This document shows, piece by piece, positions 462-27,447 of a stretch of DNA of 29,369 nt (positions are counted from its first letter, which is position 1; each line of letters starts with the position of its first letter). Under the pieces are notes generated by a model. That model saw nothing but the letters and a program-made list of their open reading frames with translations. It searched no databases and was not told the DNA's origin. The position numbers and the translations under genes were made by a program. The DNA is from a virus, in IMG/VR virus record IMGVR_UViG_3300000117_000159, positions 1-29,369 of that record; one strand, written 5' to 3'.

Positions 462-1099
462 TTGGCAACAGTGCCAAAAAATACTAATCCTAGTCTGGCT
501 ACGTAAAAGTCAAACAACAGAAGTGTTGTGATTAGGTAGAGCCCTTGAATTATGTGTAATAAAGGGAAATCTGTAACTAACACTTAACGTCCATCGGTTA
601 AACGGTACAGGGAGGGTAATCAGTCCTCCTATTATATATACAAGTTTCAAAAACCCAAAGAAAGAGGTGAGAAACAAGTGTCGGTATATATTCTTATAAC
701 AAACGGCTATTAAACAAGAGTAAGTATCTCAAAGGAATATAAGAATAGTGGGTGGCAATCCTCTACCTTGAGTATTTACTCTTGTTATGTTTTAGCATTA
801 GTTTGGTAACACCTATAAATAATATTAGGTTGAGGTTCGATTCCTTGTTTTGCTACTAGGGGAGGCAGTGCTAACTGCGTAAATAAGGAAAAGGATATAA
901 GGTGAAACTTATAGACTATAAATGCAACTGAGTTGCTACCATTAGCCATACTGTTATGAACAGACATTAACAGCCTGAGATTTATTAAGAATAGACAGTC
1001 CCCAAGAAATGTTCTACTTAATATAAACTGTATTCTTACTTCAAATAAGACAATGCAGAGTTCTCTATAAATACGTAGGTTAAACGTATTTACTTTTTT
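462..1099 (+). ncRNA. Large structured RNA candidate (~640 nt) with two pseudoknots
   Basis: No convincing gene lies in this 667-base gap, but helices are dense. Hairpins: 462-467/472-477 (6 bp, tetraloop ACAG), 514-519/524-529 enclosed by 484-489/530-535, 542-546/562-566, 865-869/874-878, 896-901/908-913, 924-928/932-936 and 951-955/959-963. A branched domain is closed by 580-585/676-681 and contains 609-615/625-630 and 644-648/671-675. An arm of about 21 bp (713-735/766-786) carries loop bases 738-747, which pair perfectly over 10 bp with 689-698: a pseudoknot. An 11-bp helix 986-998/1028-1038 has loop bases 999-1003 that can pair with 859-863: a second pseudoknot. The element ends at an intrinsic terminator. 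It recalls large phage RNAs such as GOLLD or ROOL in size and style, but I cannot align it to either. The exact 5' end is unknown. Confidence 0.7.
1068..1099 (+). terminator. Intrinsic terminator of the structured RNA
   Basis: A 9-bp stem (1068-1076 with 1084-1092, TAAATACGT/ACGTATTTA) has a 7-base loop and is followed by C and six T. It sits between the structured RNA and the start of the gene at 1123, so it probably defines the RNA 3' end. Confidence 0.8.
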
Positions 1100-1747: not shown

Positions 1748-1900
1748 ATGGATTTTGAAGAAGCTCAATTTATGGCTGCTATGTATAACATCAGCCCAGA
1801 ATTAACATGTCAATGTGATGAAGTTCACATATGTCAACAATGTATGGAAGATGAATCAGACCAAGCTCAAGCTGATGATTTAATCTCTCCTTATGAATAA
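1748..1900 (+). CDS. Small acidic Cys-rich protein, possible zinc knuckle
   Basis: A 50-residue acidic product begins MDFEEAQFMAAMYNISPELT. Residues 21-32 read CQCDEVHICQQC. The C-x-C ... H-x-C-x-x-C spacing would suit a small zinc-binding knuckle. The remainder is rich in Asp/Glu/Gln and ends ISPYE. The leader ACTAACTATTTACTAAAACT is nearly that of the gene before it. Zinc binding is inferred from the spacing only; the fold is unknown. Confidence 0.6.
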   Translation: MDFEEAQFMAAMYNISPELTCQCDEVHICQQCMEDESDQAQADDLISPYE

Positions 1901-1921
1901 TATTAACTAAAAACTATAACT

Positions 1922-2041
1922 ATGTTTACATTAACTTCATTATTATTTAACAGTGACGCAAAAGAAAGTATGGAAGAGAAAGCAGGTATATTACTACTAA
2001 ATGTATTTTTAGATTCATGTATTATACTATCTTTTCTATAA
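1922..2041 (+). CDS. Tiny membrane-type protein, paralogue of next gene
   Basis: A 39-residue product has a short acidic stretch (AKESMEEK) and a C-terminal hydrophobic segment, ILLLNVFLDSCIILSFL. The next gene (2070-2180) has the same architecture, including a shared LDxCxI core, so the two look like a tandem duplication. A single C-terminal membrane helix is the likely topology. It is translated from the recurring leader AACTAAAAACTATAACT. Function unknown. Confidence 0.55.
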   Translation: MFTLTSLLFNSDAKESMEEKAGILLLNVFLDSCIILSFL

Positions 2042-2069
2042 AGTAATTAACAATTAAAAACAAGCAATC

Positions 2070-2180
2070 ATGACTATATTGCAATTTGCTATTAAAGCTG
2101 AAAAAACTAAAGAAAGATTAACAATATTATTAACATGCCTCTGTTTAGATGCGTGTGTTATAATACCTCATTTATATTAA
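2070..2180 (+). CDS. Tiny membrane-type protein, paralogue of previous gene
   Basis: A 36-residue product begins MTILQFAIKAEKTKERL, followed by LTILLTCLCLDACVIIPHLY. The LDAC core and the charged-then-hydrophobic order match the gene at 1922-2041 (LDSC). The leader AACAATTAAAAACAAGCAATC is a degenerate form of the local family. It is probably a one-helix membrane peptide. Cys residues in and beside the helix are conserved between the two copies (LDSC / LDAC). Function unknown. Confidence 0.55.
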   Translation: MTILQFAIKAEKTKERLTILLTCLCLDACVIIPHLY

Positions 2181-2192
2181 AATAAAAACGCT

Positions 2193-2357
2193 ATGAAGCA
2201 CAATCAAGAAGAAAGACGAAGTGGAGCATTAAACAGACTAGAAGCTCAATTAGAAAATGGTACTAAAAGTACTAAGGCAGGAAATGTGCCTTTATCTGAT
2301 AAAGATGTAAAACGAATTAATAAAGAAATAGGAGTTCTTAAACAAAGATTAATATAA
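2193..2357 (+). CDS. Small charged coiled-coil-like protein
   Basis: A 54-residue product begins MKHNQEERRSGALNRLEAQL and ends RINKEIGVLKQRLI. It is almost all charged or polar with heptad-like Leu/Ile spacing at both ends, around a Gly/Thr/Lys-rich middle (ENGTKSTKAGN). This suggests two short helices that could pair. It starts 12 bases after the preceding stop. Function unknown. Confidence 0.55.
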   Translation: MKHNQEERRSGALNRLEAQLENGTKSTKAGNVPLSDKDVKRINKEIGVLKQRLI

Positions 2358-2414
2358 CAGTGTAATAATGTAAGTATATCAGCCCTTTGTGGTACTATTT
2401 AAATGATAACTTTA

Positions 2415-2439
2415 ACCTTCCAATGATAGTGAGGAAGGT
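2415..2439 (+). other. Intergenic hairpin, weak terminator or processing site
   Basis: ACCTTCC (2415-2421) pairs with GGAAGGT (2433-2439) across an 11-base loop. The sequence downstream is ATTATTAACTTTT, not a clean T-run, so it is at best a weak terminator. It lies in the 109-base gap between the genes at 2193 and 2467. Confidence 0.4.
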
Positions 2440-2466
2440 ATTATTAACTTTTAAATTAATTAACCA

Positions 2467-2643
2467 ATGAGAGATTCCTTTAAAGACTTAACAGATAAAG
2501 AATATGCAGAACTTGTTTGGGGAAATAATATGAAAAGTATTGCTTTTATGGGAGTAAAAGGTAAAAGAGTATATTTTATTAAAACCAAATGGTTTAAGCG
2601 TATTAAACAAGTAAATAAAACTAAATTTTTTAAATATAAATAA
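2467..2643 (+). CDS. Small basic protein (58 aa), unknown
   Basis: The product begins MRDSFKDLTDKEYAELVWGN. The N-terminal half looks like a short acidic helix. The C-terminal half is strongly basic and aromatic (VKGKRVYFIKTKWFKRIKQV), ending FFKYK. The next gene starts three bases after its stop, so the two are probably co-translated. A nucleic-acid-binding role is possible from charge only. Confidence 0.55.
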   Translation: MRDSFKDLTDKEYAELVWGNNMKSIAFMGVKGKRVYFIKTKWFKRIKQVNKTKFFKYK

Positions 2644-2646
2644 ACT

Positions 2647-3048
2647 ATGAAACAACTACTAACACTTATATTAATGCTACTAGGTAGTGTTATATACTCA
2701 CAAATAGATTTATACACTGATTATAGAGAGTTTTGTATATACAATGAAAAAACAGAAAGTTTTTCAACTTGTATAAATAAGAATGAGAATTCTATATTCA
2801 AGTTTAATAAAGATGCAACAATATTTACGCATCAAATAGATAGTCTATCACGTACTTATTATGTTAAAGATACTGACCATGATGAATCAAAAGGTGATTT
2901 TATGTATTACTGTGAAGCAAATAATATTGAATATATTGTACAAATAGACTTAGAAAATAATATAATAAGAATAATAGAAGCAAATTATGCACAAACTTCT
3001 CAGGTTTGTTTAATAAGGTATTATATATCAGAAATTGATAATTATTAG
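2647..3048 (+). CDS. Secreted or periplasmic protein (133 aa), unknown
   Basis: The start MKQLLTLILMLLGSVIYSQ is a good signal peptide with likely cleavage after about residue 18. There is no cysteine at the cleavage site, so it is not an obvious lipoprotein. The mature part is rich in Tyr, Asn and acidic residues and has an IVQIDLENNIIRIIEANY stretch suggesting beta strands. The product is short for a beta-sandwich. Its location upstream of the tmRNA gives no clue. Export is supported by sequence; function unknown. Confidence 0.65.
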   Translation: MKQLLTLILMLLGSVIYSQIDLYTDYREFCIYNEKTESFSTCINKNENSIFKFNKDATIFTHQIDSLSRTYYVKDTDHDESKGDFMYYCEANNIEYIVQIDLENNIIRIIEANYAQTSQVCLIRYYISEIDNY

Positions 3049-3050
3049 TT

Positions 3051-3188
3051 ATGAGAAAATTTACTAGAACTATAAAGATTATTTCATCTAAAAGAGGTAG
3101 GAAAATAATTTCTTATAATGTTGAAATTAATGAAAAATTGAGAAGTCAAGAGTTTGCTATGAATGTATTAAAAAGTATATTTATATAA
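3051..3188 (+). CDS. Small basic protein (45 aa), unknown
   Basis: ATG directly follows the previous stop (TAGTT ATG). The product begins MRKFTRTIKIISSKRGRKII and is basic at the N terminus with a mixed second half ending NVLKSIFI. Its stop lies 11 bases before the tmRNA 5' end, so the tmRNA may be cut out of the same transcript. No family recognised. Confidence 0.5.
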   Translation: MRKFTRTIKIISSKRGRKIISYNVEINEKLRSQEFAMNVLKSIFI

Positions 3189-3199
3189 TATTAACATAT

Positions 3200-3555
3200 G
3201 GGGGCGTTTTGGTTTTGACATGTGTAATGGATTAATAATATCAGCAGTCAGTGGTGACTTTAAACACTGTAGGTGAATTTCAATAATTGGAAATATATCA
3301 AAAAACAGCGCTGCATTTGCAGACAAAGTAGAAGCAATGGTCTTTAATATTGCACCAGTTGAGGAAGAGTTGCTTATGGCAGCATAAGAATCAACTAAAT
3401 GAGTTTCTTTATTCTCATACAAAATAAAGTGGTGGTAGCCCAACATTCATTGTTGGTCTCAGAGTTTGTTAGGCGCTCTTTAAATGCCTTACATAAGCTG
3501 TATAAATATTATTATGAAGAGCATATGGACCAGGGTTCGACTCCCTGCGCCTCCA
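3200..3555 (+). ncRNA. ssrA: Transfer-messenger RNA (tmRNA)
   Basis: tmRNA frees stalled ribosomes: it enters as alanyl-tRNA with SmpB, then templates a degradation tag. The 5' end GGGGGCG (3200-3206) pairs over all 7 bp with CGCCTCC (3548-3554); the third pair is G-U, the alanine identity element. It is followed by TTTTGGTTTTGACA, typical of tmRNA 5' ends. The T-arm CAGGG-TTCGACT-CCCTG (3531-3547) is perfect. After the tag stop, ATGAG/CTCAT (3399-3403/3414-3418) forms a stem whose loop CTTTATT (3407-3413) pairs with AATAAAG (3423-3429): a pseudoknot as expected. A hairpin follows at 3440-3444/3452-3456. Discriminator A3555 is followed by CTA, so CCA is not encoded. Length of about 356 nt is normal. 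No SmpB gene is seen here, so host SmpB is presumably used. Confidence 0.95.
3319..3387 (+). other. tmRNA tag reading frame
   Basis: The frame ending at TAA 3385-3387 encodes a tag that ends ...EEELLMAA. The terminal Ala-Ala after a hydrophobic pair is the usual protease-recognition end of tmRNA tags. The resume codon is not certain. GCA at 3319 would give 22 residues (begins ADKVEAMVFN); GCA at 3313 or GCT at 3310 would give 24 or 25. This is longer than the common 8-15 residue tags. Confidence 0.75.
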
Positions 3556-3578
3556 CTATTAACTAAATTAACTTAATT

Positions 3579-3707
3579 ATGAAAAAAATATTTAAAAATA
3601 CGTTTTTTTACTTAAAAATATTAAGATTGCGTAAAGAATTTCCAAATGATGCAGATTTTGGAGCAGAAGTAAGTCAATTAATAACTAAATATAAAACATT
3701 GTTATGA
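3579..3707 (+). CDS. Small basic protein (42 aa), unknown
   Basis: It starts 24 bases after the tmRNA, after the leader AACTAAATTAACTTAATT that matches the local leader family. The product begins MKKIFKNTFFYLKILRLRKE and is basic with an amphipathic first half. Its stop overlaps the next ATG (ATGA), so translation is probably coupled. Function unknown. Confidence 0.5.
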   Translation: MKKIFKNTFFYLKILRLRKEFPNDADFGAEVSQLITKYKTLL

Positions 3708-3847
3708 ATAATATATTAAGTGCCAATGATTGGCTTAAAAAAAATAAAAATAAGTATATAAATGGTAGTTCTGTTGCTATAGTTATGAAGCAGTATGCTA
3801 TTTATTATAATAATATGTTAAATGAACTCAATAAAAAAAATAACTAG
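3704..3847 (+). CDS. Small protein (47 aa) overlapping the radical-SAM gene
   Basis: ATGA overlap with the previous stop, and a 26-base overlap with the next gene. The product begins MNNILSANDWLKKNKNKYIN, continues with GSSVAIVMKQYAIYYNNMLN and ends KKNN. No motif recognised. Coupled translation from the previous to the radical-SAM gene is the likely arrangement. Confidence 0.5.
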   Translation: MNNILSANDWLKKNKNKYINGSSVAIVMKQYAIYYNNMLNELNKKNN

Positions 3848-4685
3848 AAAAAGTATGTTAATTAGAGAGTCTGGTAGAAGCTCTGATTATATTACTCCTA
3901 GTTTTGGATATGGATGTTTATTTAATTGTAGTTATTGTTATATGAAAAGACATTTATCTAAAGGATTAACTGTTGCTAAAAATGCAGGAGATATTTTAAC
4001 AGAAATTAATAATCATGTTTATTTTTATGCAGATGTAAAAAAACCTAATCAAACTCATAAAGAATATATTACTTATGATATATCTTGTAATGAAGATTTT
4101 GCTTTGCATTCTAAATATCATGACTGGAAATATATATTTAAATTCTTTAGAGATAATACAAAAGCTTTAGGTACTTTTGCAACTAAGACTATTCCTATAA
4201 ATTTTTTAGAGTTTAATCCAAAAAAGAAAATAAGAATAAGATTTAGTCTTATGCCTCAGAACATAGCTGATAAACTAGAACCAAACACTGCTAAAATTAT
4301 TAATAGAATAAAAGCTGTTGATGCTTTTATAGAAGCAGGATATGAGGTTCACTTAAACTTTTCACCTGTTGTTGTTTATGACGGTTGGTTAGAAGATTAT
4401 GAAATGTTATTTGAAATGTGTAATGATTATATAGAGAATAAAGAAGAAGTTTTATCTGAAGTTATATTTCTTACACATAATGAAAAGAAGCATAAAGATA
4501 ATTTAATCAATAATCTACCTGGTGAAGATTTATTATGGACACCAAAAACTCAAGAAACTAAAACATCTCAGTATGGAGGTGTAAATATAAGGTATAAACA
4601 TAATCTTAAAAAACAGTACATAAAAAAATGGACTAGTTTACATAATAAGATTATACCTTGGAATACAATTAGATATATATTTTAA
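3822..4685 (+). CDS. Radical SAM enzyme, spore photoproduct lyase-like
   Basis: The radical-SAM cluster site is C-x3-C-x2-C (Cys32, Cys36, Cys39, in YGCLFNCSYCYMKRHL), binding [4Fe-4S] and SAM. Three further stretches fit spore photoproduct lyase, which reverses the thymine dimer 5-thyminyl-5,6-dihydrothymine in spore DNA. They are YDISC (Cys89, placed like that enzyme's H-donor Cys), TFATKT (about 118-123), and HLNFSPVVVYDGWLEDYEML, typical of the C-terminal barrel of that family. At 287 aa it is shorter than Bacillus SplB (about 340). Phage genomes do carry SplB-like proteins, but nothing here suggests a spore-forming host, so the substrate may differ: another DNA photoproduct or a nucleic-acid modification. 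Family assignment is good; substrate unknown. Confidence 0.8.
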   Translation: MNSIKKITRKSMLIRESGRSSDYITPSFGYGCLFNCSYCYMKRHLSKGLTVAKNAGDILTEINNHVYFYADVKKPNQTHKEYITYDISCNEDFALHSKYHDWKYIFKFFRDNTKALGTFATKTIPINFLEFNPKKKIRIRFSLMPQNIADKLEPNTAKIINRIKAVDAFIEAGYEVHLNFSPVVVYDGWLEDYEMLFEMCNDYIENKEEVLSEVIFLTHNEKKHKDNLINNLPGEDLLWTPKTQETKTSQYGGVNIRYKHNLKKQYIKKWTSLHNKIIPWNTIRYIF

Positions 4686-8671: not shown

Positions 8672-10550
8672 ATATTGTAAAAATAAAAAAATACTTGGAC
8701 TAGATACTGAAACTAGTGGTTTATTTAATCATAATAATAAAATGATTATGTTACAAATAGGAGATAAAGATACTCAATTTGTAATAGACGTCAGAACAGT
8801 AGATATAAGTCCCTTAAAAGAAGTACTAGAAAATCCTAATATTATTAAAGTACTACAAAATGCTTCTTTTGACTATAAATTCTTTAGAATGTATAATATA
8901 ATGTTAGTTAACATATGGGACACTCAATTAGCAGAAATGGTACTTACTGCTGGACCTGATAATAATGAAGTTAATTTAGGTTTTATTACTAAGAAGTATT
9001 TAAATATAGAATTAGATAAAAGTGTTCGTAATCAGTTTGTAGGAATGAAAAGTAAACCTTTTACTTACAAGCAAATTATATACGGAGCAAAAGATGTAGA
9101 ATATTTATTAGATATTAGGGAAAAACAGCTTAAAGAGATTGAAAAGTATGATTTAGAACCTTGTTTAAGACTTGAAAATAAATTTGTTAGTGTATTGGCT
9201 GATATAGAATATAATGGTTTTTATTTAGATAAAACTATGTGGTCTAAATTAGAGATTACTAACAAAGATAATTTAAGTAAAGCTAGAAAAAGTTTAGATG
9301 ATTATATATTAAATAATAATATTACTGAATTTATTGATTTACAATATAATTTATTTTCTGAAGGTTTTAAATGTAGTATAAATTGGGACTCACCTAAGCA
9401 AGTAATACCTTTTCTTAAACATTTAGGAGTAAATACTATTACAAGAGATAAAAGAACAGGTAAAGATAAAGATACTTGTGAAGAAAAGGCTATAGGAAAA
9501 TATAAAAAAAAATTCCCTTTTCTTACCTTATATTTTAATTATAAAGCAATCGCTAAAGAAGTTAGTACTTATGGAATAGATTTTTTAGACCATATAAATA
9601 AGTATACTGGTAGAGTTCATTCTAGTTTTTGGCAAATAGTTTCTACAGGAAGAATAAGTAGTAATCATCCTAATTTACAGAATATACCTGCAAGAGAAGA
9701 TGAAACAGGTTCTCAGCCTTTTAGAGAGTGTTTTAGAGGAGCAGGAGATAATACTCTTATTGTAGCTGATTATAGCCAACAAGAGCCTCGTGTGACTGCT
9801 GATGTATGTAAAGACCCTGCTTTAGTAGAGTTTTATTTAAATGGAGATGGTGACACTCATTCTATGGTAAGTAGTAGACTGTTTTCTGTAATAGAAGGTA
9901 AAACTGTTAAAATAACTAAAGGAGACCCTAGAAGACAAATAGGAAAAGTACTTAATCTTAAATTAGACTATGGTGGTTCTGCATTTACTGTTAAAGACGA
10001 TTTAAAAGTTACTACTGAAAAAGAAGCTCAAGTATTTATTGACGCATTAGAAGAGGCTTTTCCTGGTAAAGCAGAGTATTTTGATAGAAAACTAAAAGAA
10101 ACTATGAAAAATGGTTATATTTTAATAGATTCTATAACAAAAAGAAAGTTATTTACTAAAGATTTTGATGACTTTAAAATATTACAAAAAAGATTAGATA
10201 ACTCTAAAAAGAACCCTTCTTTAAAAAGTAATTTTCCTTGGAGTGATTATTTTAAATTAAAAGGTAAAATATCTAGACTTTCAAGAAATGCTCCCATACA
10301 AGGAACAAGTGGGTCTATGACTAAGCTTGCTGCTATTATGTTAAAAAAAGAATTACAAGAAAAAAATTTATATAAAAAAGTATGGATAGTAAATCTTGTA
10401 CATGATGAAATAGTAATAGAAACAAGTGAAAAATACATAGAAGTAGCTTCAAAGTTATTAACAAAATGTATGGAAGACGCTGGAAAAGTATTTTGTAAAA
10501 CAATTCCAATGGTTGCAGAAGCAGTTGTTTCTGACTATTGGGCACATTAA
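8568..10550 (+). CDS. Family A DNA polymerase (PolA-type) with 3'-5' exonuclease
   Basis: Replicative phage polymerase of the Pol I/T7 type. The exonuclease domain (about 25-200) has Exo I Asp46/Glu48 (LGLDTETSG), Exo II Asn98/Asp102 (NASFDYKFF) and Exo III Tyr172/Asp176 (YGAKDVEYL), so proofreading looks intact. There is no 5'-3' exonuclease domain. In the polymerase domain, motif A is DYSQQEPR (Asp401), motif B RRQIGKVLNLKLDYG (Arg456, Lys460, Tyr468) and motif C VHDE (His612, Asp613, Glu614). In motif B the position equal to E. coli Phe762 is Leu464. The 'Q..' of DYSQIELR is here QQEPR. At 660 aa it is normal for a phage enzyme without the 5' nuclease. ATG 8568 is the only ATG before the exonuclease domain, giving the long overlap with the regulator; a start nearer codon 25 (GTG) is possible. 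Confidence 0.93.
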   Translation: MIKYVTQQQSLDITTQKKTWDKEDVIYSTIGEVLKYCKNKKILGLDTETSGLFNHNNKMIMLQIGDKDTQFVIDVRTVDISPLKEVLENPNIIKVLQNASFDYKFFRMYNIMLVNIWDTQLAEMVLTAGPDNNEVNLGFITKKYLNIELDKSVRNQFVGMKSKPFTYKQIIYGAKDVEYLLDIREKQLKEIEKYDLEPCLRLENKFVSVLADIEYNGFYLDKTMWSKLEITNKDNLSKARKSLDDYILNNNITEFIDLQYNLFSEGFKCSINWDSPKQVIPFLKHLGVNTITRDKRTGKDKDTCEEKAIGKYKKKFPFLTLYFNYKAIAKEVSTYGIDFLDHINKYTGRVHSSFWQIVSTGRISSNHPNLQNIPAREDETGSQPFRECFRGAGDNTLIVADYSQQEPRVTADVCKDPALVEFYLNGDGDTHSMVSSRLFSVIEGKTVKITKGDPRRQIGKVLNLKLDYGGSAFTVKDDLKVTTEKEAQVFIDALEEAFPGKAEYFDRKLKETMKNGYILIDSITKRKLFTKDFDDFKILQKRLDNSKKNPSLKSNFPWSDYFKLKGKISRLSRNAPIQGTSGSMTKLAAIMLKKELQEKNLYKKVWIVNLVHDEIVIETSEKYIEVASKLLTKCMEDAGKVFCKTIPMVAEAVVSDYWAH

Positions 10551-10557
10551 GAATAAA

Positions 10558-11298
10558 ATGAGTAAAAGAAGAAGAAACAAAAAAAGAAACAAAAGAAAAA
10601 GTAACATGAGATATATTAATAATTCACGTTTTCACCTATATAATAGAAGTATTTATGTAGTAGGAGGAGACAAAGAGTATGCAAATTGGCTGCCTGAGAT
10701 GTATCATGTAGATAATGTTGAAGATGCTGATTTAGTTATGTTTACAGGAGGAGCAGACGTTAGCCCTTCTTATTATAATGAAAATGTAGGTACTTATACT
10801 TCAATTAATCCTTCTAGAGATAAAGAAGAAATAGAAATTTACAAACAAGCTATTTCTTTAAATAAAAAAATTATAGGTATTTGTAGAGGAAGCCAGTTAA
10901 CTTGTGTGATGGCAGGAGGTAGATTAATACAACACTGTACAGGACACGGTATAATGGGTACTCATAAAATTAAATGGAAATCAGACGAAGAAAGTGATAT
11001 AACAAGTACTCATCATCAAATGCAATATCCTTTTGATTTACCTAAAGAAGATTATATTATGTGTGCATATTCTTTATCTAAGAAAAGTGATGTATATTTA
11101 GATGGAGATAATAATCCTATAGATATACCTAAGAATTTTGTAGAGCCAGAAGTAGTAGTATATACAAAAATTGACGCAATAGCTATTCAGGGACATCCTG
11201 AATATTTAGACAAAGAAGACGAAGGAGTCATAAAAATAAAAGAAGTATTAAATCAATTTTTTGTGGCTGATTTTAAAAATATTATAGAAAAAGTTTAA
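10558..11298 (+). CDS. Class I glutamine amidotransferase (peptidase C26/PuuD-like)
   Basis: A class I amidotransferase or gamma-glutamyl hydrolase fold. Start 10558 (MSKRRRNKK) is preferred to upstream TTG codons because it follows AAGAATAAAATG after the polymerase stop. The nucleophile elbow GICRGSQ puts the active Cys at about 109, the oxyanion turn is FTGGADVSP, and the catalytic pair is in QGHPEY (His213, Glu215). The family includes PuuD and YvdE-like gamma-glutamyl-GABA hydrolases and folate gamma-glutamyl hydrolase. These either cut gamma-glutamyl amides or release ammonia from glutamine. First of eight linked amide-chemistry genes, three bases before the next start. The basic N-terminal tail (about 20 residues) is unusual for the family and could mediate nucleic-acid contact. 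Substrate unknown. Confidence 0.85.
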   Translation: MSKRRRNKKRNKRKSNMRYINNSRFHLYNRSIYVVGGDKEYANWLPEMYHVDNVEDADLVMFTGGADVSPSYYNENVGTYTSINPSRDKEEIEIYKQAISLNKKIIGICRGSQLTCVMAGGRLIQHCTGHGIMGTHKIKWKSDEESDITSTHHQMQYPFDLPKEDYIMCAYSLSKKSDVYLDGDNNPIDIPKNFVEPEVVVYTKIDAIAIQGHPEYLDKEDEGVIKIKEVLNQFFVADFKNIIEKV

Positions 11299-11300
11299 TT

Positions 11301-12119
11301 ATGATAGAAAATGTAACAATAGGCGCAGACCCTGAGTTCTTTTTAAGAGATAAAATAACAGGAGAGCCTGTTTCTTCTGAAGGGCTAATAGGAGGAACTA
11401 AAAGAAAACCAAAACCTATTAGTGACTTGGGGCATAATGTGCAAGAAGACAATGTAGCAGTAGAATTTGGATTTAAGCCTGTAGTAGATGCTCAAAGCTT
11501 TATTAGAGATATTAATACATGTATAGATTATGTAAAAGAAAATATTCCTAATAATCTTGAACCTTATATAGTAGCATCAACTACTTTTGATAGTAAGTAT
11601 TTACAAACTATGCAAGCAAGAGCATTTGGGTGTGAGCCTGATTTAGATGTATGGGCAAAACAACCTAATACAGCGCCTTTTGCAGGTACTAACTTAAGAG
11701 TAAGTGCTGGACATATACATATAGGTTATGAAAAACCTAGAATTCCTATAACAGAGAAACTTATTAAAATGATGGATTTGTTTTTAGGTGTTCCTAGCGT
11801 TCTTATGGACGAAGATAGGGACAGAAGAAAAATGTATGGTAAAGCAGGTGCTTTTAGAATTAAAAGTTATGGTTGTGAGTATAGAACTTTATCTAATTTT
11901 TGGATTACTTCTGATAAGCTTATTGAATGGGCTTTTAATAATACTCAATTAGCTATAACTAATGTTAATAATAAAAAAGAAATAAGCACAGAAGACGCTA
12001 AAGATATTCAAAAATGTATTAATGAATATGATGAAAAGTTAGCTAATAAATTAATTAATAAATTCAATATTCCGTATATAAAAACAAATATATATAAGAA
12101 AGTTAAAGTTGAAATATAG
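11301..12119 (+). CDS. COOH-NH2 ligase, phiEco32-type amidoligase
   Basis: Glutamine-synthetase-fold ligase of the phage phiEco32 COOH-NH2 ligase type; such enzymes are predicted to join a carboxylate to an amine using ATP. Motifs: GADPEF (Glu12), NVAVEFGF (Glu55), SAGHIHIG (His138, His140) and EYRTLSNFW (Glu193, Arg195). These are the metal/nucleotide-binding positions expected in glutamine-synthetase-like amidoligases. Length 272 aa is normal. It sits between a class I amidotransferase (which could supply ammonia or reverse the reaction) and a beta-rich protein. Substrates are not known for this family as far as I know; roles in cell-wall or peptide-tag modification have been proposed from gene neighbourhoods. 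Family confident, substrate unknown. Confidence 0.87.
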   Translation: MIENVTIGADPEFFLRDKITGEPVSSEGLIGGTKRKPKPISDLGHNVQEDNVAVEFGFKPVVDAQSFIRDINTCIDYVKENIPNNLEPYIVASTTFDSKYLQTMQARAFGCEPDLDVWAKQPNTAPFAGTNLRVSAGHIHIGYEKPRIPITEKLIKMMDLFLGVPSVLMDEDRDRRKMYGKAGAFRIKSYGCEYRTLSNFWITSDKLIEWAFNNTQLAITNVNNKKEISTEDAKDIQKCINEYDEKLANKLINKFNIPYIKTNIYKKVKVEI

Positions 12120-12132
12120 TAATAAAAAAGAT

Positions 12133-12984
12133 ATGAGAGGAAATCAGAATTTTAATTTTACTTTAGGACAAAAAGTAAAGTGTGATAATCTTCATGGCTA
12201 TGAAGGAGAAGTATTAAAGAAAAATAGAATTTACACGGTTAGTTTTATAGGCGTTAATGTTATTGGTTTAGAAGAGCATTTAAAAGAAGATGATTCTCCT
12301 GTTAAATTTTTTAAGCATTATTTTCAAGAAGTTCAAGAAAACGTAAAAAGAATCTTTCGTACAGGAGACTCAGTAAGATATAGTGGTTGTAATTGGACTG
12401 TTATAGAACAGTTAGGAGTTAATCTTTTTTTATCTTATAATGGAGGAGGAGCAGATGACGTTTGTATAAATATATTAACTGATGATTATATAGTAACTAA
12501 ACAAAAAATTAGAAACAAAGATAAAGTAACATTAGTACCTTTAAGTAGTATTCAAAGGTTTTTAGAGGATGATAGATATTATTTAAATGAATCATCTATG
12601 GATAAAACGGATTTAGAAGGTATTTATATGGATTTAGAAAATACAGACAGTTATACTGTTAGTAAAGCATGTGAAAGAAGAAGAACAGTAATTTTAAAAG
12701 GATATAAAGACATTAACATTCCATTTGAGTTACTTATACCTTTAAAGGAACATTCAAAATATAATCCAATAGTGGTAGGAAGTAAAGTAGTTTATAAAAA
12801 AGGAAAATTTGCAGTTATAAACAAAGAGTACATAGTTAAAGACATTGTAAAACTATCATCTAAAACACTTTTAGGTTTAGAAGTAAGTAATGGTGTTATA
12901 TATGTCAATGAAAAACAATGTAAAAATACAAAAAATAAAGATGAAAAAAAAGTGGTTAAAAAGGAGCTTAAGGATATTCTCTAG
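12133..12984 (+). CDS. Beta-rich repeat protein (SH3-like repeats), unknown
   Basis: Start 12133 (MRGNQNFNFTLG) is chosen over a TTG at 12109. The protein has at least three stretches of the same rhythm: GQKVKCDNLHGYEGEVLKKN then RIYTVSFIGVNVIGLEEH, RTGDSVRYSGCNWTVIEQLG, and VGSKVVYKKGKFAVINKEY then IVKDIVKLSSKTLLGLEV. Each looks like an SH3/KOW-type barrel beginning G-x-x-V-x-Y/C. The tail is very Lys-rich (NTKNKDEKKVVKKELKDIL). It lies between two ligases in the amide operon, which suggests a substrate-presenting or scaffold role, perhaps binding the modified polymer or protein. No catalytic motif. Its end overlaps the ATP-grasp gene by 44 bases. Confidence 0.7.
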   Translation: MRGNQNFNFTLGQKVKCDNLHGYEGEVLKKNRIYTVSFIGVNVIGLEEHLKEDDSPVKFFKHYFQEVQENVKRIFRTGDSVRYSGCNWTVIEQLGVNLFLSYNGGGADDVCINILTDDYIVTKQKIRNKDKVTLVPLSSIQRFLEDDRYYLNESSMDKTDLEGIYMDLENTDSYTVSKACERRRTVILKGYKDINIPFELLIPLKEHSKYNPIVVGSKVVYKKGKFAVINKEYIVKDIVKLSSKTLLGLEVSNGVIYVNEKQCKNTKNKDEKKVVKKELKDIL

Positions 12985-13744
12985 ACATCCTTCTCATGAT
13001 GGAATAAGAGGTAAAATATTTGTACCTGCTAATTTATTAGCCTGTGTAAGATTTGGTAGTCAAACTATATGGAATAAAAGTGAAAAATTTCTTAATTCTC
13101 CTGAAGCTGTTAGTAATAGTTCTAATAAAGAAAAAATGAAAAAATGTTTTACAGATAAAGAAGTTAAAACAGCTCTTTGGTGGAATACTATGCAGTCTTT
13201 AATAGAAGAAGAAGAAATTCCTTTTCCTATTATAGCTAAGAAAAAATACGGCTCTAGAGGGCAAGGTATGGTTAAACTAGACAATCAAAATCAACTAGAT
13301 GTGTTTACTGTAAATAATAACTTTGAAAATTACATTTATGAAAAGTTTTATAACTATTCTCGTGAATATCGTTTACACGTTAGCTCTGAAGGTTGTTTTT
13401 ATACTTGTAGAAAAATGCTAAAAAGTGATATTCCTAAGAATCAAAGATGGTTTAGAAATGATTCTAATTCTGTATGGTATATAGAAACAAATGAAAACTT
13501 TGATAAGCCTTCTAATTGGGATGACATTGTTCAAGAGTGTGTAAAAGCAATGAAAGCTGTAGGGCTTGATTTTGGGGCTTGTGATGTTAAAGTACAAAGC
13601 GCTACTAATAAAGAAGGAGTTAAAAGAGAATATCCTAAGTTTATTATAATAGAAATCAATAGTGCTCCTTCTTTTGGTGAAGGAACTTTAGAAGCGTATA
13701 TTAAAAACTTACCTTTAATGTTAAAAAATAAATATGAAAAGTAA
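12941..13744 (+). CDS. ATP-grasp ligase (RimK-like)
   Basis: ATP-grasp enzymes make an acyl-phosphate from ATP and a carboxylate, then join an amine. Start 12941 follows AAAATAAAG, the local initiation style, and leaves an overlap with the previous gene. Motifs: FPIIAKKKYGSRGQGM (Lys101 and Gly-loop 104-109), YEKFYNYSREYRLHV (Glu134, Arg144), LDFGACDVKV (Asp215) and IIEINSAPSF (Glu238, Asn240, the Mg-binding pair). This is a complete ATP-grasp active site, closest in style to RimK or peptide ligases. It starts inside the SH3-like gene and ends 11 bases into the next. A good partner for amide-bond formation in this cluster; acceptor unknown. Confidence 0.88.
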   Translation: MKKKWLKRSLRIFSRHPSHDGIRGKIFVPANLLACVRFGSQTIWNKSEKFLNSPEAVSNSSNKEKMKKCFTDKEVKTALWWNTMQSLIEEEEIPFPIIAKKKYGSRGQGMVKLDNQNQLDVFTVNNNFENYIYEKFYNYSREYRLHVSSEGCFYTCRKMLKSDIPKNQRWFRNDSNSVWYIETNENFDKPSNWDDIVQECVKAMKAVGLDFGACDVKVQSATNKEGVKREYPKFIIIEINSAPSFGEGTLEAYIKNLPLMLKNKYEK

Positions 13745-14192
13745 AAAAAAGATAAGAGAAAGTAATATAAAAAAAATAAAAGAATTAATTAGTGCTTATT
13801 TTTGTAAAACAGGTCTAGAGAGTTTCAAATTACCGATATTAGACACGCCAAATGGCTTAAAAAGTATAGAATCTGCAGAAGAAGATGAGGATAATCCTTA
13901 TTATGATGATTCTTATTATACAGGAGTTACTTTGACTTATATTATGAAGTATATTATAAAGTATAAATATAAAAAAGATTTAGTTATATATAGTTTATTT
14001 GATATGTTAGATAATGAGGAAATAAAATCATTACATTGTCCTACTATAGGGAAAGTAGTATTTGAAAACAATAATACAGATCATTGGACATATAGAGTTT
14101 TAAAAACCCCTAAAAGAGACCATTTTGCAAATATAGCAGAAGCATTACCTAAAGAGTTTTGTACTTATATAGGTATAAAAAAATTATTATGA
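13734..14192 (+). CDS. Unknown protein in the amidoligase operon (152 aa)
   Basis: The product begins MKSKKKIRESNIKKIKELIS, a basic helix, followed by a region with an acidic Tyr-rich patch (ESAEEDEDNPYYDDSYYTGV) and a more regular alpha/beta C-terminal half (LVIYSLFDMLDNEEIKSLHC). No catalytic motif recognised. Overlaps at both ends (ATP-grasp gene by 11 bases, cyclotransferase gene by four) show it is a true part of this operon. A substrate carrying many Asp/Glu/Tyr residues would fit, but that is speculation. Confidence 0.65.
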   Translation: MKSKKKIRESNIKKIKELISAYFCKTGLESFKLPILDTPNGLKSIESAEEDEDNPYYDDSYYTGVTLTYIMKYIIKYKYKKDLVIYSLFDMLDNEEIKSLHCPTIGKVVFENNNTDHWTYRVLKTPKRDHFANIAEALPKEFCTYIGIKKLL

Positions 14193-14548
14193 AAAAATTA
14201 TGTGCTGTATATGGCAGTTTAAAAAAAGGTTATAGTAACCATGACATGTTTTTAGGAAAAGCTAAGTATGTAGGTAAAACTATAACAGGACCTAGATATA
14301 CTATGTATAGTTTAGGAGGTTTTCCAGGAGTAGTTGAAAATGGTGATACATCTATTCATTTAGAGGTATACGAAGTAACAGAAAAAGAAGATAAAAATAT
14401 AGAAAGTTTAGAAGGATATCGTAAAGATTCTCCTGAATATTCTTTTTATCTTAAAAAACAAATAAATACAGAATTTGGTAAAGCAAGTATTTATATTTTT
14501 AACAAAAAATCAGATGAATTACCTATAGTAGAAACAGGTAATTGGTAA
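14189..14548 (+). CDS. Gamma-glutamylcyclotransferase-like protein (AIG2/GGCT fold)
   Basis: This fold removes gamma-glutamyl groups from an amine as pyroglutamate (5-oxoproline). Start 14189 is chosen because it gives MKKLCAVYGSLKKGYSNHDM. The signature is VYGSLKKG (substrate-binding loop) near the start and ESLEGYR, whose Glu75 is the expected catalytic acid (the Glu before GYR). YSLGGFPGVV also fits the family's YxLGxyPg motif. At 119 aa it is a compact, AIG2-like version. ATGA-type overlap with the previous stop. In an operon with ligases and amidotransferases, it probably removes or rearranges a gamma-glutamyl intermediate. Confidence 0.85.
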   Translation: MKKLCAVYGSLKKGYSNHDMFLGKAKYVGKTITGPRYTMYSLGGFPGVVENGDTSIHLEVYEVTEKEDKNIESLEGYRKDSPEYSFYLKKQINTEFGKASIYIFNKKSDELPIVETGNW

Positions 14549-14571
14549 TTAGTAAAAAAACAAACAAACAA

Positions 14572-15840
14572 ATGATAAATTTTATTATAACATTATTATT
14601 ATTGCAATTTATTAACGCTTTAATAACAAAAAAACGTTCTGTAACTTTAGGATGTGGATTATTAGGTTACTCAGGAGAGTATGCAGCAGATAAAGATAAA
14701 CTTGCTATTTTATTTCTGTATAACCAAACAAGAGGAGAAGACTCTTGTGGTTATTATAATCATGACATTGCTATTGCTGCAGAGCATAGAATAGAGAAAA
14801 AAAGTGGTAAAGTGTCTTTAAATTTATTGCCAGATGAAATAAAAGACCCTACTAATTTATTTATAGGACATACAAGAGCAGCAACTAGTGGTACTGGACG
14901 TACTTCTGCATATAATGCTCATCCTTTTCTTTTTGGAAAGTGGGTAGGTGCTCATAATGGTACTTTAACTAATCTTAAAGGACTAATAAGAGAGTATGAT
15001 ATGGATGAAAAAACTATTGATATAGATAGTAAAATATTTCCAGCGTCTATACACCAAGAAAATAATTTTAAGATACTTAATAATTATGACGGTGCAGCTG
15101 CTTTAATATGGGCTAACACTGATATTAGTAAAAAAAGTCCTTTGTATGTGTATCACGATAAAGAAAGACCTTTATTTTCTGGTATTATTAAAAAAGGCTC
15201 TAAAATAGGTAGGTATATTTCTTCTATTAAAGAGTCTTTAAAAGCTATTGGTTGTACAAACATAGAGTCTTTTGAAGTAGATACTTTATACAGTATTAAA
15301 GATGGAGCTATAAAAGAAACAATGGCAATAAGTAGAAATAATCCTATTAAAAACAATTTAAAAAGAATTCCTGAAAGCATACAATTAGCTTGTAGAGAAA
15401 GTAAATCTATATTTACCCAACAAGGTAAAACAACTAATGTCTTTGATGACGGCACTGTAATAGTAACTGTTGATAGTTATTATGGTATTAAAAAGTGTAT
15501 TAGAGAAGAAGTAGTATATGACCCTAAAAGAGAAATAACTGTACATGTTCGTTATATGAGTGACGGAGGCTTTGAAGAAGTTTTAGTAAGTAACTATCGA
15601 GATAAAACAGATATTGTAACTAAAGACTCGGAAGAAGAAAATACAATAGCACTAGAAGATGTTATGGACTACATGGCTGAGTTATATTATAAATTAGATG
15701 AAGCTAGAGCTACTTTAAGTATAGCCCTTGACAATAAGGATATTAAAGAAGAAGACGTAGAAAGTCTAGATGACGTTATGCTTAATGTAACTAAATTTAT
15801 AGGTTCTTTAGCAGAAATAGGAGAAACAGCAGAAATATAA
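14572..15840 (+). CDS. Class II (Ntn) glutamine amidotransferase with hydrophobic leader
   Basis: N-terminal-nucleophile amidotransferases need their Cys as the first residue. Here the Cys is residue 28 (GCGLLGYSGEY), preceded by a leader beginning MINFIITLLLLQFINALITK, then KRSVTLG. The rest of the active site is intact: Arg102 in GHTRAATSG, AYNAHPF, and Asn129-Gly130 in GAHNGTL, with D/S acid residues in DIDSKIF. Start 14572 (ATG after AAACAAACAAACAA) is preferred to a TTG at 14542. Either the leader is cut to free Cys28, as in propeptide-bearing PurF-type enzymes, or the true start is non-standard; no Met lies just before the Cys. The C-terminal 250 residues end in a strongly acidic, helical tail, possibly partner-binding. 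Glutamine-hydrolysing, ammonia-delivering role likely. Confidence 0.85.
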   Translation: MINFIITLLLLQFINALITKKRSVTLGCGLLGYSGEYAADKDKLAILFLYNQTRGEDSCGYYNHDIAIAAEHRIEKKSGKVSLNLLPDEIKDPTNLFIGHTRAATSGTGRTSAYNAHPFLFGKWVGAHNGTLTNLKGLIREYDMDEKTIDIDSKIFPASIHQENNFKILNNYDGAAALIWANTDISKKSPLYVYHDKERPLFSGIIKKGSKIGRYISSIKESLKAIGCTNIESFEVDTLYSIKDGAIKETMAISRNNPIKNNLKRIPESIQLACRESKSIFTQQGKTTNVFDDGTVIVTVDSYYGIKKCIREEVVYDPKREITVHVRYMSDGGFEEVLVSNYRDKTDIVTKDSEEENTIALEDVMDYMAELYYKLDEARATLSIALDNKDIKEEDVESLDDVMLNVTKFIGSLAEIGETAEI

Positions 15841-15847
15841 TAAAAAT

Positions 15848-17287
15848 ATGGAAGATAAAATTAAAAAATTACTTAAAATAGAACCTAATAACGGAACTGT
15901 TTATACTGAAGATAATAGTTTTTGTGAGTCTGGCTCTATTTGTGGTGGTATTGTTTACAAAAAAAACAATAAATGGGATGTAAAGTATTTTTATAAGAGT
16001 AATAATTTGTATAATTTTTTACTTACTATTGATAACTTGCTTTTAAATTTTTATATAAAACATTTTGAATGGTCAGTAGTTTTACCTTACATAGCCCGTA
16101 AAGATTTTGGAATGCCTCTTTATTTTATAGATAAAGAAGCTATTGAGTTTTTTAATTTAAAAAAATATCCTAATTATTATTTAGTAAAAAAGCCTGCCCA
16201 AAAGAGTGTAAATCTTAAGCTTAAAAAAGGTAATAATAATTTAGGATTTGAATTTACTAATAGCAATATTGAAGCTTATAATCCTCTTACTAAAAGACAA
16301 AAGTTAAAATTTAAACAACAATTAGGAACAGACTCTAAAACTTATATAGCTACAGAAGGACTTAAGTATTCTTTTGGAGTAGAGTTAGAAACTTGTTCAG
16401 GATATGTATCTTTATCAGATTATTTTATTAATAAAGTTAATATACGTTCTGTAAGAGATGGGTCTGTAAGTGGTTGTGAATATGTTACAGGAGTTCTTAA
16501 GGGAGATGCTGGTTTTAATCAATTATATAATATTTCAAATCTTCTTAATAAGCAAAACAAAGTAGATAGAACTTGTGGTATGCATGTGCATATAGGAGGA
16601 GCTAATTTTAATAAATCTTTTTCTGTTTATGCTCACATATTAAGTGAAAAAATACAGGATTCTATGTTTTCTATAGTTTCTAAAACTAGAAGAAACAATT
16701 CTTATTGTGGAGATGTAATACCTCTTGGATTAGAGTCTATTATTAAGAAATATGGAATTAGTTATGGAGTTGAGGTTGCTTATGAAACTTTGTTTAAAGA
16801 AATGACTTACGGAAGTTTGCCATCTAGTACTTATAATAGAAAAATTAGTAATCATCATTATGGTAGATATTGTGGCAAGTATAACGGTATAGAAGATGAA
16901 GATAATTTTAGATATAAATGGGTAAATTTAATTCCTTGTAATTTTAATGTTAGAAACTATGCTCATCCAGCTCATGGTTACGATAATGAGGCAAATACTA
17001 TAGAGTTTAGATTTCATTCTGGTACATTAAATTATGTTAAAATTAAAAACTTTACTCTTATATGTATGGCTTTTGTAAATTATGTAGAAAATAATAAAAC
17101 AGACATATTAAATAAAGAAGTAATTACTTTGGAAGATATAATAGAGAGTACTTATAGAAAAAATGTAAAACCTTTGTTATCTTATGTTGATATGAGACAA
17201 AAGTTATTTAATAATGACCCTGAATTATTAGAATCTAGTGATAAACAAAAAATCTTTAAAACTAAAAAAGAAAGAATATGTGTATAA
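15848..17287 (+). CDS. Amidoligase (COOH-NH2 ligase, Amidoligase_2 type)
   Basis: Second glutamine-synthetase-fold ligase of the operon, from a different subfamily than the one at 11301. The catalytic part starts at about 170. FGVELE (176-181) with Glu179/181, RSVRDGSVSGCEYVT (Asp204, Glu211), CGMHVHIG (His246, His248) and NTIEFRFHSGT (386-390) are the signature positions. About 170 residues before the domain are not typical and contain no recognised motif (beta-like, aromatic), possibly a substrate-binding domain. Starts seven bases after the previous stop and overlaps the next gene by ten bases. It should make an amide between a carboxylate and an amine; the two different ligases in one operon suggest a branched or two-step product. 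Confidence 0.87.
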   Translation: MEDKIKKLLKIEPNNGTVYTEDNSFCESGSICGGIVYKKNNKWDVKYFYKSNNLYNFLLTIDNLLLNFYIKHFEWSVVLPYIARKDFGMPLYFIDKEAIEFFNLKKYPNYYLVKKPAQKSVNLKLKKGNNNLGFEFTNSNIEAYNPLTKRQKLKFKQQLGTDSKTYIATEGLKYSFGVELETCSGYVSLSDYFINKVNIRSVRDGSVSGCEYVTGVLKGDAGFNQLYNISNLLNKQNKVDRTCGMHVHIGGANFNKSFSVYAHILSEKIQDSMFSIVSKTRRNNSYCGDVIPLGLESIIKKYGISYGVEVAYETLFKEMTYGSLPSSTYNRKISNHHYGRYCGKYNGIEDEDNFRYKWVNLIPCNFNVRNYAHPAHGYDNEANTIEFRFHSGTLNYVKIKNFTLICMAFVNYVENNKTDILNKEVITLEDIIESTYRKNVKPLLSYVDMRQKLFNNDPELLESSDKQKIFKTKKERICV

Positions 17288-17940
17288 TAATGGCTAAAAG
17301 AGCAGGAGTAAAGTTAGACATGGCAGAATTAAAAGATGCAGTTAAAACATCTTCTTTACATAATTGTCATGGAACTGGCTTTGCTCTAAAAAGAAAAAAT
17401 AGTTCAAATATAATTCTTTCTAAAGGGTATGTATATTATGAGATGGCTTTAGAGGTAATAGAAGACTTAAAAATACAAAAAGACGATGAGCTTATGGTTC
17501 ATATGAGGTATGCAACTGCAGGCGAAACTAATGTAGAAAATTGTCATCCTTTTATAGTTTCTGATAATATTAAAGATATTTTATTAGATGAAGTTGTAGT
17601 TAAAGGAAAAGCAGTAGTAGCTCATAATGGTACTTTTGATTATTATGTAGATAAAAAATCTGACTATTCAGATACTATTCATTACATTAAAGATTATTTA
17701 AGTGAAGAAGGTGTATTAGAATCTATGAGAAATATAGAATATGCTTCTTATTATCAAATGCATAGATTAATGGGAAATAATAGACTTTGCCTAATATATC
17801 CTGATGTTAATTTAGATATGGATACTTATGGCGATTGGAATATGAGAAAAAAAGACTCATTAATATATTCTAACTATTATCATATTCAGCCTCATAATGG
17901 ATATCAATTAGAGCTTACTTCAAAACATAAAATAATATAA
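17278..17940 (+). CDS. Class II (Ntn) glutamine amidotransferase, short form
   Basis: Cys2 follows the initiator Met directly (MCIIMAKRAG), as in standard Ntn amidotransferases. Arg77 is in HMRYATAG, NCHPF follows, and Asn117-Gly118 is in VAHNGTFDYY, the normal oxyanion pair. Ser/Asp residues in SDYSDTIHYI correspond to the region after it. At 220 aa it is a single glutaminase-type domain without a synthetase. It overlaps the amidoligase gene by ten bases and has no leader, unlike the other class II enzyme, so the two may have different partners: one ligase each. Product unknown. Confidence 0.85.
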   Translation: MCIIMAKRAGVKLDMAELKDAVKTSSLHNCHGTGFALKRKNSSNIILSKGYVYYEMALEVIEDLKIQKDDELMVHMRYATAGETNVENCHPFIVSDNIKDILLDEVVVKGKAVVAHNGTFDYYVDKKSDYSDTIHYIKDYLSEEGVLESMRNIEYASYYQMHRLMGNNRLCLIYPDVNLDMDTYGDWNMRKKDSLIYSNYYHIQPHNGYQLELTSKHKII

Positions 17941-27133: not shown

Positions 27134-27144
27134 ATAAAAATAAA

Positions 27145-27447
27145 ATGGCAACAAAAGAGAAGAAAGAAGAAATAGTGTTAGACACTATAGTGGAGAAGGA
27201 ATATAGATTTGCTATCTATGATGATAAAGCAGAAACTACATCAGAAGTGCTCCTTAAAGAGTCTGAATTAACAGACGAGCATCATAAAGCTATGTTTTAT
27301 GATATGTGGGAATATTTTGAAAATGCATCAAAAAATGCACAACAGTTATTTCTGTTAAAATTACAAATGTCACAATCTACACCTACAGAGGGACAAGTAG
27401 ATAGTACTAAAAAGGCATATAAAGACGAAATAAAAGGAGTAGAATAA
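27145..27447 (+). CDS. Small acidic protein (100 aa), unknown
   Basis: It starts 12 bases after the reductase. The product begins MATKEKKEEIVLDTIVEKEY, then RFAIYDDKAETTSEVLLKES, and a helical part (MFYDMWEYFENASKNAQQLF). It ends EIKGVE. Mostly acidic/helical, no motif recognised. It may be a small partner or assembly factor, given its operon position. The sequence just after its stop holds the hairpin at 27453. Confidence 0.6.
   Translation: MATKEKKEEIVLDTIVEKEYRFAIYDDKAETTSEVLLKESELTDEHHKAMFYDMWEYFENASKNAQQLFLLKLQMSQSTPTEGQVDSTKKAYKDEIKGVE

Follow-up and report, generated by a model that had tools for sequence, protein, structure and literature searches.

A full-length tmRNA gene in a phage genome, and its place in a phage clade of long-tag tmRNAs

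We identified a complete one-piece tmRNA gene (ssrA) in the window, i.e., the whole linear IMG/VR record of 29,369 bases, and placed it in a clade of phage tmRNAs that carry unusually long tags. Phage tmRNAs as such are known, and the new part is the long tag, which in our judgment is with high probability a selected feature of these phages. The best explanation overall, which we consider likely, is a working phage tmRNA that takes part in trans-translation with host SmpB and adds a selected, phage-specific tag. The sequence-only reading of this DNA had proposed a complete tmRNA gene and, as one possible role, a phage-specific tag; the observation is confirmed, the interpretation as a whole is supported in part, and that of a phage-specific tag is strengthened and widened by the analysis below.

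The tmRNA gene of the window and its syntenic relative

The single gene called by ARAGORN in the window is a tmRNA at 3200-3556 (+), with the tag GNISKNSAAFADKVEAMVFNIAPVEEELLMAA followed by a stop. Rfam RF00023 matches 3200-3558 with 96.3 bits (E 1.1e-36; gathering score 47) over model positions 1-374 of 374, so that both programs named beforehand as checks, ARAGORN and an Infernal tmRNA model, gave a positive result; apart from RF00023, no Rfam family scored over its cut-off in the window. The features of the gene are as follows.

3200..3558 (+): one-piece tmRNA gene (ssrA); ARAGORN, RF00023 at 96.3 bits, syntenic relative L222
3200..3206 (+): 5′ strand of the acceptor stem, GGGGGCG, including G3 of the G3-U70 alanine identity pair; 7/7 pairs with 3548-3554, pairs 5 and 6 changed on both sides in L222
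3207..3219 (+): D-loop region, UUUUGGUUUUGAC, presumably part of the SmpB-binding face; alignment to the RF00023 consensus
3289..3384 (+): tag reading frame of 32 codons, GNISKNSAAFADKVEAMVFNIAPVEEELLMAA, with resume codon GGA at 3289-3291; ARAGORN, frame kept by 3-base indels relative to L222
3385..3387 (+): tag stop codon UAA; sequence reading and ARAGORN
3495..3506 (+): AAGCUGUAUAAA, by which the phage tmRNAs are recognized (AAGCAUGUAGA in the bacterial pattern that we searched); together with the T-arm, 60 IMG/VR stretches and 0 in genome_contigs
3531..3547 (+): T-arm, CAGGG UUCGACU CCCUG; 5/5 pairs
3548..3555 (+): 3′ strand of the acceptor stem, CGCCUCC, and discriminator A; pairing and RF00023 alignment

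The G3-U70 pair, T-arm and tag frame described in the sequence-only reading are thus all present: the acceptor stem (GGGGGCG/CGCCUCC) and T-stem are fully paired, the base at 3555, where that reading ended the gene, is the discriminator A, and the 32 codons before UAA form an open frame with a small hydrophobic end (LLMAA). The gene ends in ACUA where a mature tmRNA has ACCA; the terminal CUA is probably removed and CCA put in its place, a step for which the host CCA-adding enzyme is needed. The region of the four putative pseudoknots in the mRNA-like domain aligns to RF00023, although many of the pairs that Infernal aligns there are non-standard, and the folding tool that we used draws no pseudoknots. 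The folding free energy of the RNA is a weak signal when taken alone (z -1.66; 8 of 100 shuffles equal it). A scan for promoters and terminators gave nothing above shuffled sequences; for example, promoter-like sites in 2900-4000 were no commoner than in shuffles (10 versus a mean of 8.6, sd 2.8). Elsewhere in the window, at 794-854 (+), we observed a tRNA-like element that has D-loop-like and T-arm-like stretches and ends in ACTA, as the tmRNA does; it has a sub-threshold match to the Rfam family mascRNA-menRNA (24.5 bits versus 42.5; E 0.14) and was not called by ARAGORN in the scan of the window, and it is possibly a degenerate tRNA.

A fragment of another viral contig, L222, matches 1896-3840 of the window (84% over 1979 bases) and has a tmRNA at the same place. 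Pairs 5 and 6 of its acceptor stem are changed on both strands, from GGGGGCG/CGCCUCC to GGGGAUG/CAUCUCC. Within the tmRNA, the two differ most in the tag, yet its frame is kept: the two indels within the tag are of 3 bases each, whereas the five outside it are of 1, 4, 1, 1, and 1 bases. Judging from these comparisons of sequence, the tmRNA of the window is a living RNA. Between the two tags, pN is 0.45 and pS 0.70 in this one sequence pair; since a single pair is too little, we make no strong claim of selection on the window's own tag, for which the evidence is weak. A pattern for closer relatives, TTTTGGNTTTGACATGTNTA, was found in six stretches, one of them L222; the other five have no T-arm in reach and were taken as chance matches. 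The closest polymerase relatives of the window, L002 and L003 (87 and 85%), align with it only from 6087 and 6357 on, and are therefore uninformative on the tmRNA.

A phage clade with long tags

We searched IMG/VR for the signature AAGCUGUAUAAA together with a T-arm, and found 60 stretches. The same pattern is found in 0 stretches of genome_contigs (84,980 species of bacteria and archaea, each represented by a single genome), a phage-only distribution that depends on the pattern by which the clade was gathered; genome_contigs does contain tmRNAs, since the same scan with the bacterial motif AAGCAUGUAGA gives at least 118 stretches. A looser signature pattern matches 77 stretches, which together with two Callevirus records, FpV4 and the window make up the 81 loci that we examined. 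Using acceptor pairing, we extracted a complete RNA from 70 of these loci; 50 of the RNAs are distinct. All 70, that of the window included, have G3-U70 and discriminator A; stem pairing was required by the extraction, the G-U pair was not. The 11 loci that gave no complete RNA include eight with only 11-374 upstream bases, where the RNA is probably cut off, one in which no 5′ end was found, and two (L385 and L389) that the final pattern does not match, which had long ANM tags in an earlier reading.

Tags were read by the rule that the resume codon encodes G, D, or A and follows N, I, or T. Long tags are present in 45 of the 50 distinct RNAs, each in one open frame; they are 23-45 residues long (median 35), begin with Gly (39) or Asp (6), and end in Ala-Ala in 43 cases. 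Of the remaining RNAs, four carry short tags that follow GN[TV][EQ]LAMAA, and no tag was assigned to the fifth, L390. The sequence ANM is found in 42 of the 45 long tags, within a core of the form Q-x-x-A-N-M-x-x-V-x-x-[LI]-[LI]. The clade was defined by the AAGCUGUAUAAA signature and by tree position, and the ANM core was no criterion: the window has the signature, the tree position and a tag of at least 20 residues (32), and lacks the Q-x-x-A-N-M core. ANM is likewise absent from the tags of L222 and L218. The window's tag is a divergent member of the clade and, because the tag of L250, next to it in the tree, has the ANM core, probably a derived form from which the core was lost.

Across the 42 core tags, the residues Q, A, N, and M never vary (42/42 for each) and V is found in 41. 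The codon used does vary for Q (CAA/CAG), A (GCN), and N (AAC/AAT). The pN/pS ratio of the core, over 42 sequences, is 0.41 in frame (column bootstrap 0.24-0.61) versus 0.90 and 1.42 in the two other frames, in a calculation that pools related pairs and makes no kinship correction. Since the ratio is low in that frame alone, and synonymous codons vary, what is conserved is the peptide and not the RNA only. AlphaFold models the tag of L233 as one helix, with confidence that is moderate for so short a peptide (pLDDT 75.8, pTM 0.40). An amphipathic helix was considered for the core and dropped, as 225 of 2000 column shuffles reach the observed amphipathicity. Sequence searches gave no Pfam match at E 1 for four tags, no match to PDB sequences at E 10 for one tag, and nothing at E 10 when the tag of L204 was compared to phage records by tblastn.

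Members of the clade are found in named phages. The Callevirus tmRNA (Cellulophaga phages phi38:1, phi40:1, and Calle) has the same signature and, in our reading, a 30-residue tag, GNNTNAVNAQIEANMEAVNAILNLEVAVGV, which unlike that of the window has the ANM core and ends in GV, and which in phi38:1 contains no K or R; ARAGORN begins this tag eight residues later. The gene is annotated as a tmRNA in Calle_1, where it was counted as such (PMC8776804), but not in phi38:1, in which the unannotated tmRNA lies at 26803-27164 of NC_021796.1, with a short antisense CDS (gp041) annotated inside it. The phages of Flavobacterium psychrophilum (FpV4, Fpv1, FPSV, and others) belong to the same clade: FpV4 has a 35-residue tag, GNTNNSVVSLEDNAQVEANMNMAFSLIREDVAVAA, and its RNA differs by GATT in place of GACA in the D-loop region and by one T-stem pair that is A-U, not G-C. 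In 29 F. psychrophilum phage records we found a tag that shares 74% identity with the L251 tag; nothing under the match is annotated as a tmRNA. TTGATT in place of TTGACA in the D-loop region was also observed in L204, L205, L208, L216, L224, L259, L384, L387, and L390. Two of these, L205 and L259, are on one 105-kb phage contig (IMGVR_UViG_3300025853_000041), which thus has two tmRNA genes; their tags are alike in the N-terminal part and the core, and unlike in linkers and ends. For many members of the clade, automated calling thus yields no tag or one that begins too late: ARAGORN misses several of the RNAs, and in others, such as that of Callevirus, it places the start of the tag too far along.

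Long tags may not be confined to this clade. With a T-arm pattern that was not chosen for tags, we obtained at least 120 viral stretches and 94 ARAGORN calls. Among the matches listed, 14 of 41 distinct one-piece viral tags, as against 2 of 61 bacterial ones, are at least 20 residues long (Fisher p 3.6e-5), in a comparison of ARAGORN tags, some of them mis-framed on both sides, from samples that were drawn differently. Three of the 14 belong to the window's clade, and the two long bacterial tags are probably a mis-frame (L365) and an uncertain case (L344). We take generally longer viral tags as a lead. There are other groups of viral tmRNAs with long tags, e.g., DVELSTMTFEDAMAFVGADYAVAA and similar tags in L135, L161, L162, and L186, which are alike (...DAM[AS]F[VI]GADYA[VL]AA) and apparently unrelated to the window's group; the presence of long tags in apparently unrelated phage tmRNAs (e.g., ...STMTFEDAMAFVGADYAVAA) suggests that they arose more than once.

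Likely hosts, ancestry and genomic setting

Among the best 20 of 2005 annotated-phage matches, the DNA polymerase I of the window is closest to that of a Leptolyngbya phage (39% over 91%), followed by crAss-like phages of Bacteroides and human faeces (32-34%). The only annotated-phage matches of the tmRNA are seven Cellulophaga phage records (12% of the query, 80-81%). From these polymerase and tmRNA matches, a Bacteroidota host is likely for the window's phage. We compared its tag with those of bacteria. Of 120 genomes from one flavobacterial family, that of Maribacter flavus, 113 have a single tmRNA match each at E 1e-15, and the other seven have none under these strict filters. All 113 tags are 8-10 residues long, and 86 are GENNYALAA; ARAGORN gave a wrong frame for three of the RNAs and left one uncalled, and by hand all four read GENNYALAA. 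A second bacterial sample, drawn by pattern from many phyla (at least 118 stretches), gave 111 ARAGORN calls, spread over 110 loci, and the tags called were almost always 8-14 residues long; when 13 suspect or uncalled loci were re-read, 11 had ordinary short tags, L344 stayed uncertain, and none was seen in L309. At 32 residues, the window's tag lies well outside the 8-10 residues of the host type. Compared to the Bacteroidota tmRNA (RF00023), the window has in common the one-piece gene, the G3-U70 acceptor, the T-arm, the Gly start, and the Ala-Ala end of the tag; it differs by the length of the tag (32 versus about 9 residues), by the AAGCUGUAUAAA variant, and by its separate branch in the tree.

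That tree was built from 91 tmRNAs (50 from phages and 41 from Bacteroidota). The 45 long-tag phage RNAs are all on one side of a branch (98/96), and the 41 bacterial ones are on one side of another (100/100), in a tree for which the program warned of long branches meeting and of a bootstrap not settled. The window and L222 are sisters (100/100) and group with L250 (98/87).

We also clustered the neighbors of the 45 long-tag tmRNAs (ORFs with an ATG start and at least 45 aa, within 8 kb; many of the stretches are shorter than 8 kb). No gene family lies beside the tmRNA in more than 12 of the 45 loci, so no neighboring partner gene or adaptor is evident; since neighboring genes differ among the members, the tmRNA has moved between different phages, or persisted in them. 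Shortly after the tmRNA, at 3822-4685 (+), the window encodes a radical-SAM-like protein (Pfam SPL, spore photoproduct lyase; E 4.7e-25); ARAGORN called no tmRNA in the loci of its 53 viral relatives, and an RF00023 search of the whole records of 37 of these and of five polymerase relatives gave nothing over the cut-off. Further on, a run of genes at 10513-17940 (+) encodes a peptidase C26/GATase, a phiEco32-like COOH-NH2 ligase, a gamma-glutamyl cyclotransferase, GATase_6, Amidoligase_2, and GATase_4 (peptide-bond and glutamine chemistry), and we take it to resemble a phage amidoligase cassette.

Proposed function and rival explanations

Infection produces broken mRNAs, so that rescue capacity is useful to a phage. 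Given its anatomy, the phage tmRNA very probably performs ribosome rescue, and a boost to ribosome recycling, as proposed in the sequence-only reading, fits the data. SmpB was found in none of 44 phage records (the window, two of its polymerase relatives, and 41 records that carry a long-tag tmRNA), an absence that is firm only for the three complete named genomes among the 41, most of the others being fragments; the control found it in 10 of 14 genomes, namely in all ten bacteria. ClpP was over the cut-off in none of 43 phage records, with one sub-threshold match (18.1 bits versus 20.2). The phage tmRNA should thus use the SmpB, AlaRS, EF-Tu and proteases of the host. Host AlaRS would charge it with alanine, and host EF-Tu and SmpB would bring it to ribosomes stalled on broken mRNAs during infection, which trans-translation would then free. 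The message appended would be the 32-residue tag, in place of one of about nine residues of the G-E-N-N-Y-A-L-A-A type; in the clade generally it would have Gly or Asp at its start, in almost every case Ala-Ala at its end, and some 15-35 extra residues between them that include the core Q-x-x-A-N-M-x-x-V. The Ala-Ala end resembles those of bacterial tags (AVAA, AMAA, and ALAA), so tagged chains are probably still degraded, and this end may stay a ClpXP-type degron. The extension may give the phage its own route or rate of disposal, via a protease, an adaptor or a fate that the host tag does not use. That the long tag redirects proteolysis is a tentative reading, and we are equally cautious about its wider form, in which Bacteroidota phages would have evolved an ssrA tag language of their own, the core diverting rescued proteins to another protease, adaptor or place.

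Ordinary rescue with an inert long tag would account for much of this, the extra residues being a drifted spacer that is tolerated as long as the Ala-Ala end works. The tags of the window and L222 do diverge more than the remaining RNA, linker lengths vary widely, and 4 of the 50 distinct RNAs make do with short GN[TV][EQ]LAMAA tags; but longer tags cost more translation per rescue, and a spacer would not be expected to keep Q, A, N, and M unchanged in all 42 core tags while the codons for the first three of these residues change synonymously, and we consider an inert tag rather unlikely. The same invariance includes a Met whose AUG might start a separate micro-protein (e.g., MNKVFSLLREEVAVAA), and this would explain the conservation of the core; since the amino acids Q and AN, which precede the Met, are just as invariant, and the AUG is absent from the window and L222, such a start codon is hardly credible as the cause.

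The RNA might instead act as a decoy that titrates host SmpB or alanine and so inhibits trans-translation by the host, as was proposed for the tmRNA of mycobacteriophage DS6A, which consists of the tRNA-like domain only (PMC4131195, PMC11915505). Our failure to find SmpB in the 44 phage records would suit a decoy, whereas a decoy has no need of a full-length mRNA-like part, in which 45 of the 50 distinct RNAs have a long open frame that ends in a stop, and we hold this role to be improbable. Finally, ssrA is a known site of phage integration (PMC11590407), and the gene could be a remnant of host ssrA at an attachment site, or a pseudogene. Its full length, the syntenic relative and the compensatory changes in L222 disfavor such a relic, as do its place in the tree, far from the 41 Bacteroidota tmRNAs that we tested, and the lack of an integrase among the 20 ORFs of the window scanned with Pfam, which together make this origin very improbable. 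We thus prefer a working phage tmRNA with a selected tag. The claim of a phage-specific tag holds in that the tag is radically unlike host-type tags and the tags of the clade are selected as peptides; for the window's own tag it is less secure, with one close relative and weak evidence of selection.

There are precedents for parts of this proposal. Mesoplasma florum has an ssrA tag of about 27 residues. Its tag, different from the usual one and read by its own Lon, is a precedent from a bacterial system (PMC9097571). The Methylophilales phage Melnitz also encodes a tmRNA, but one that is two-piece, of alphaproteobacterial lineage and under riboswitch control; its authors propose selective tagging of host proteins (PMC9004378). 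The gene had been called uncommon for a phage, which is fair, as 402 of 18,146 phage genomes (given as 2.3%) had a tmRNA in a 2021 count (PMC9004378), though it is not new: ten phages with tmRNA were listed in 2014 (PMC4131195), and a tmRNA database paper of 2025, for which viral genomes were searched, gives 10 as the commonest tag length (PMC11915505). Our full-text literature search, at the level of titles and abstract openings, found no description of long or conserved phage tags; single ones may well stand in the tmRNA database or in subscription papers.

Why some phages carry a tmRNA is usually answered by extra rescue capacity or by a relic of an integration site. In this clade the tag itself is a likely reason, since the message is three to four times longer than in the likely hosts and is under selection as a peptide. 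The clade is testable in a cultured phage, phi38:1 on Cellulophaga baltica, using public mass-spectrometry data on infected cells (PXD066074 / MSV000098485, named in PMC13288928), and long phage tags may yield new degrons or protease-routing signals. If the proposal is true, it would be the phage, and not the host, that settles the fate of unfinished proteins during infection.
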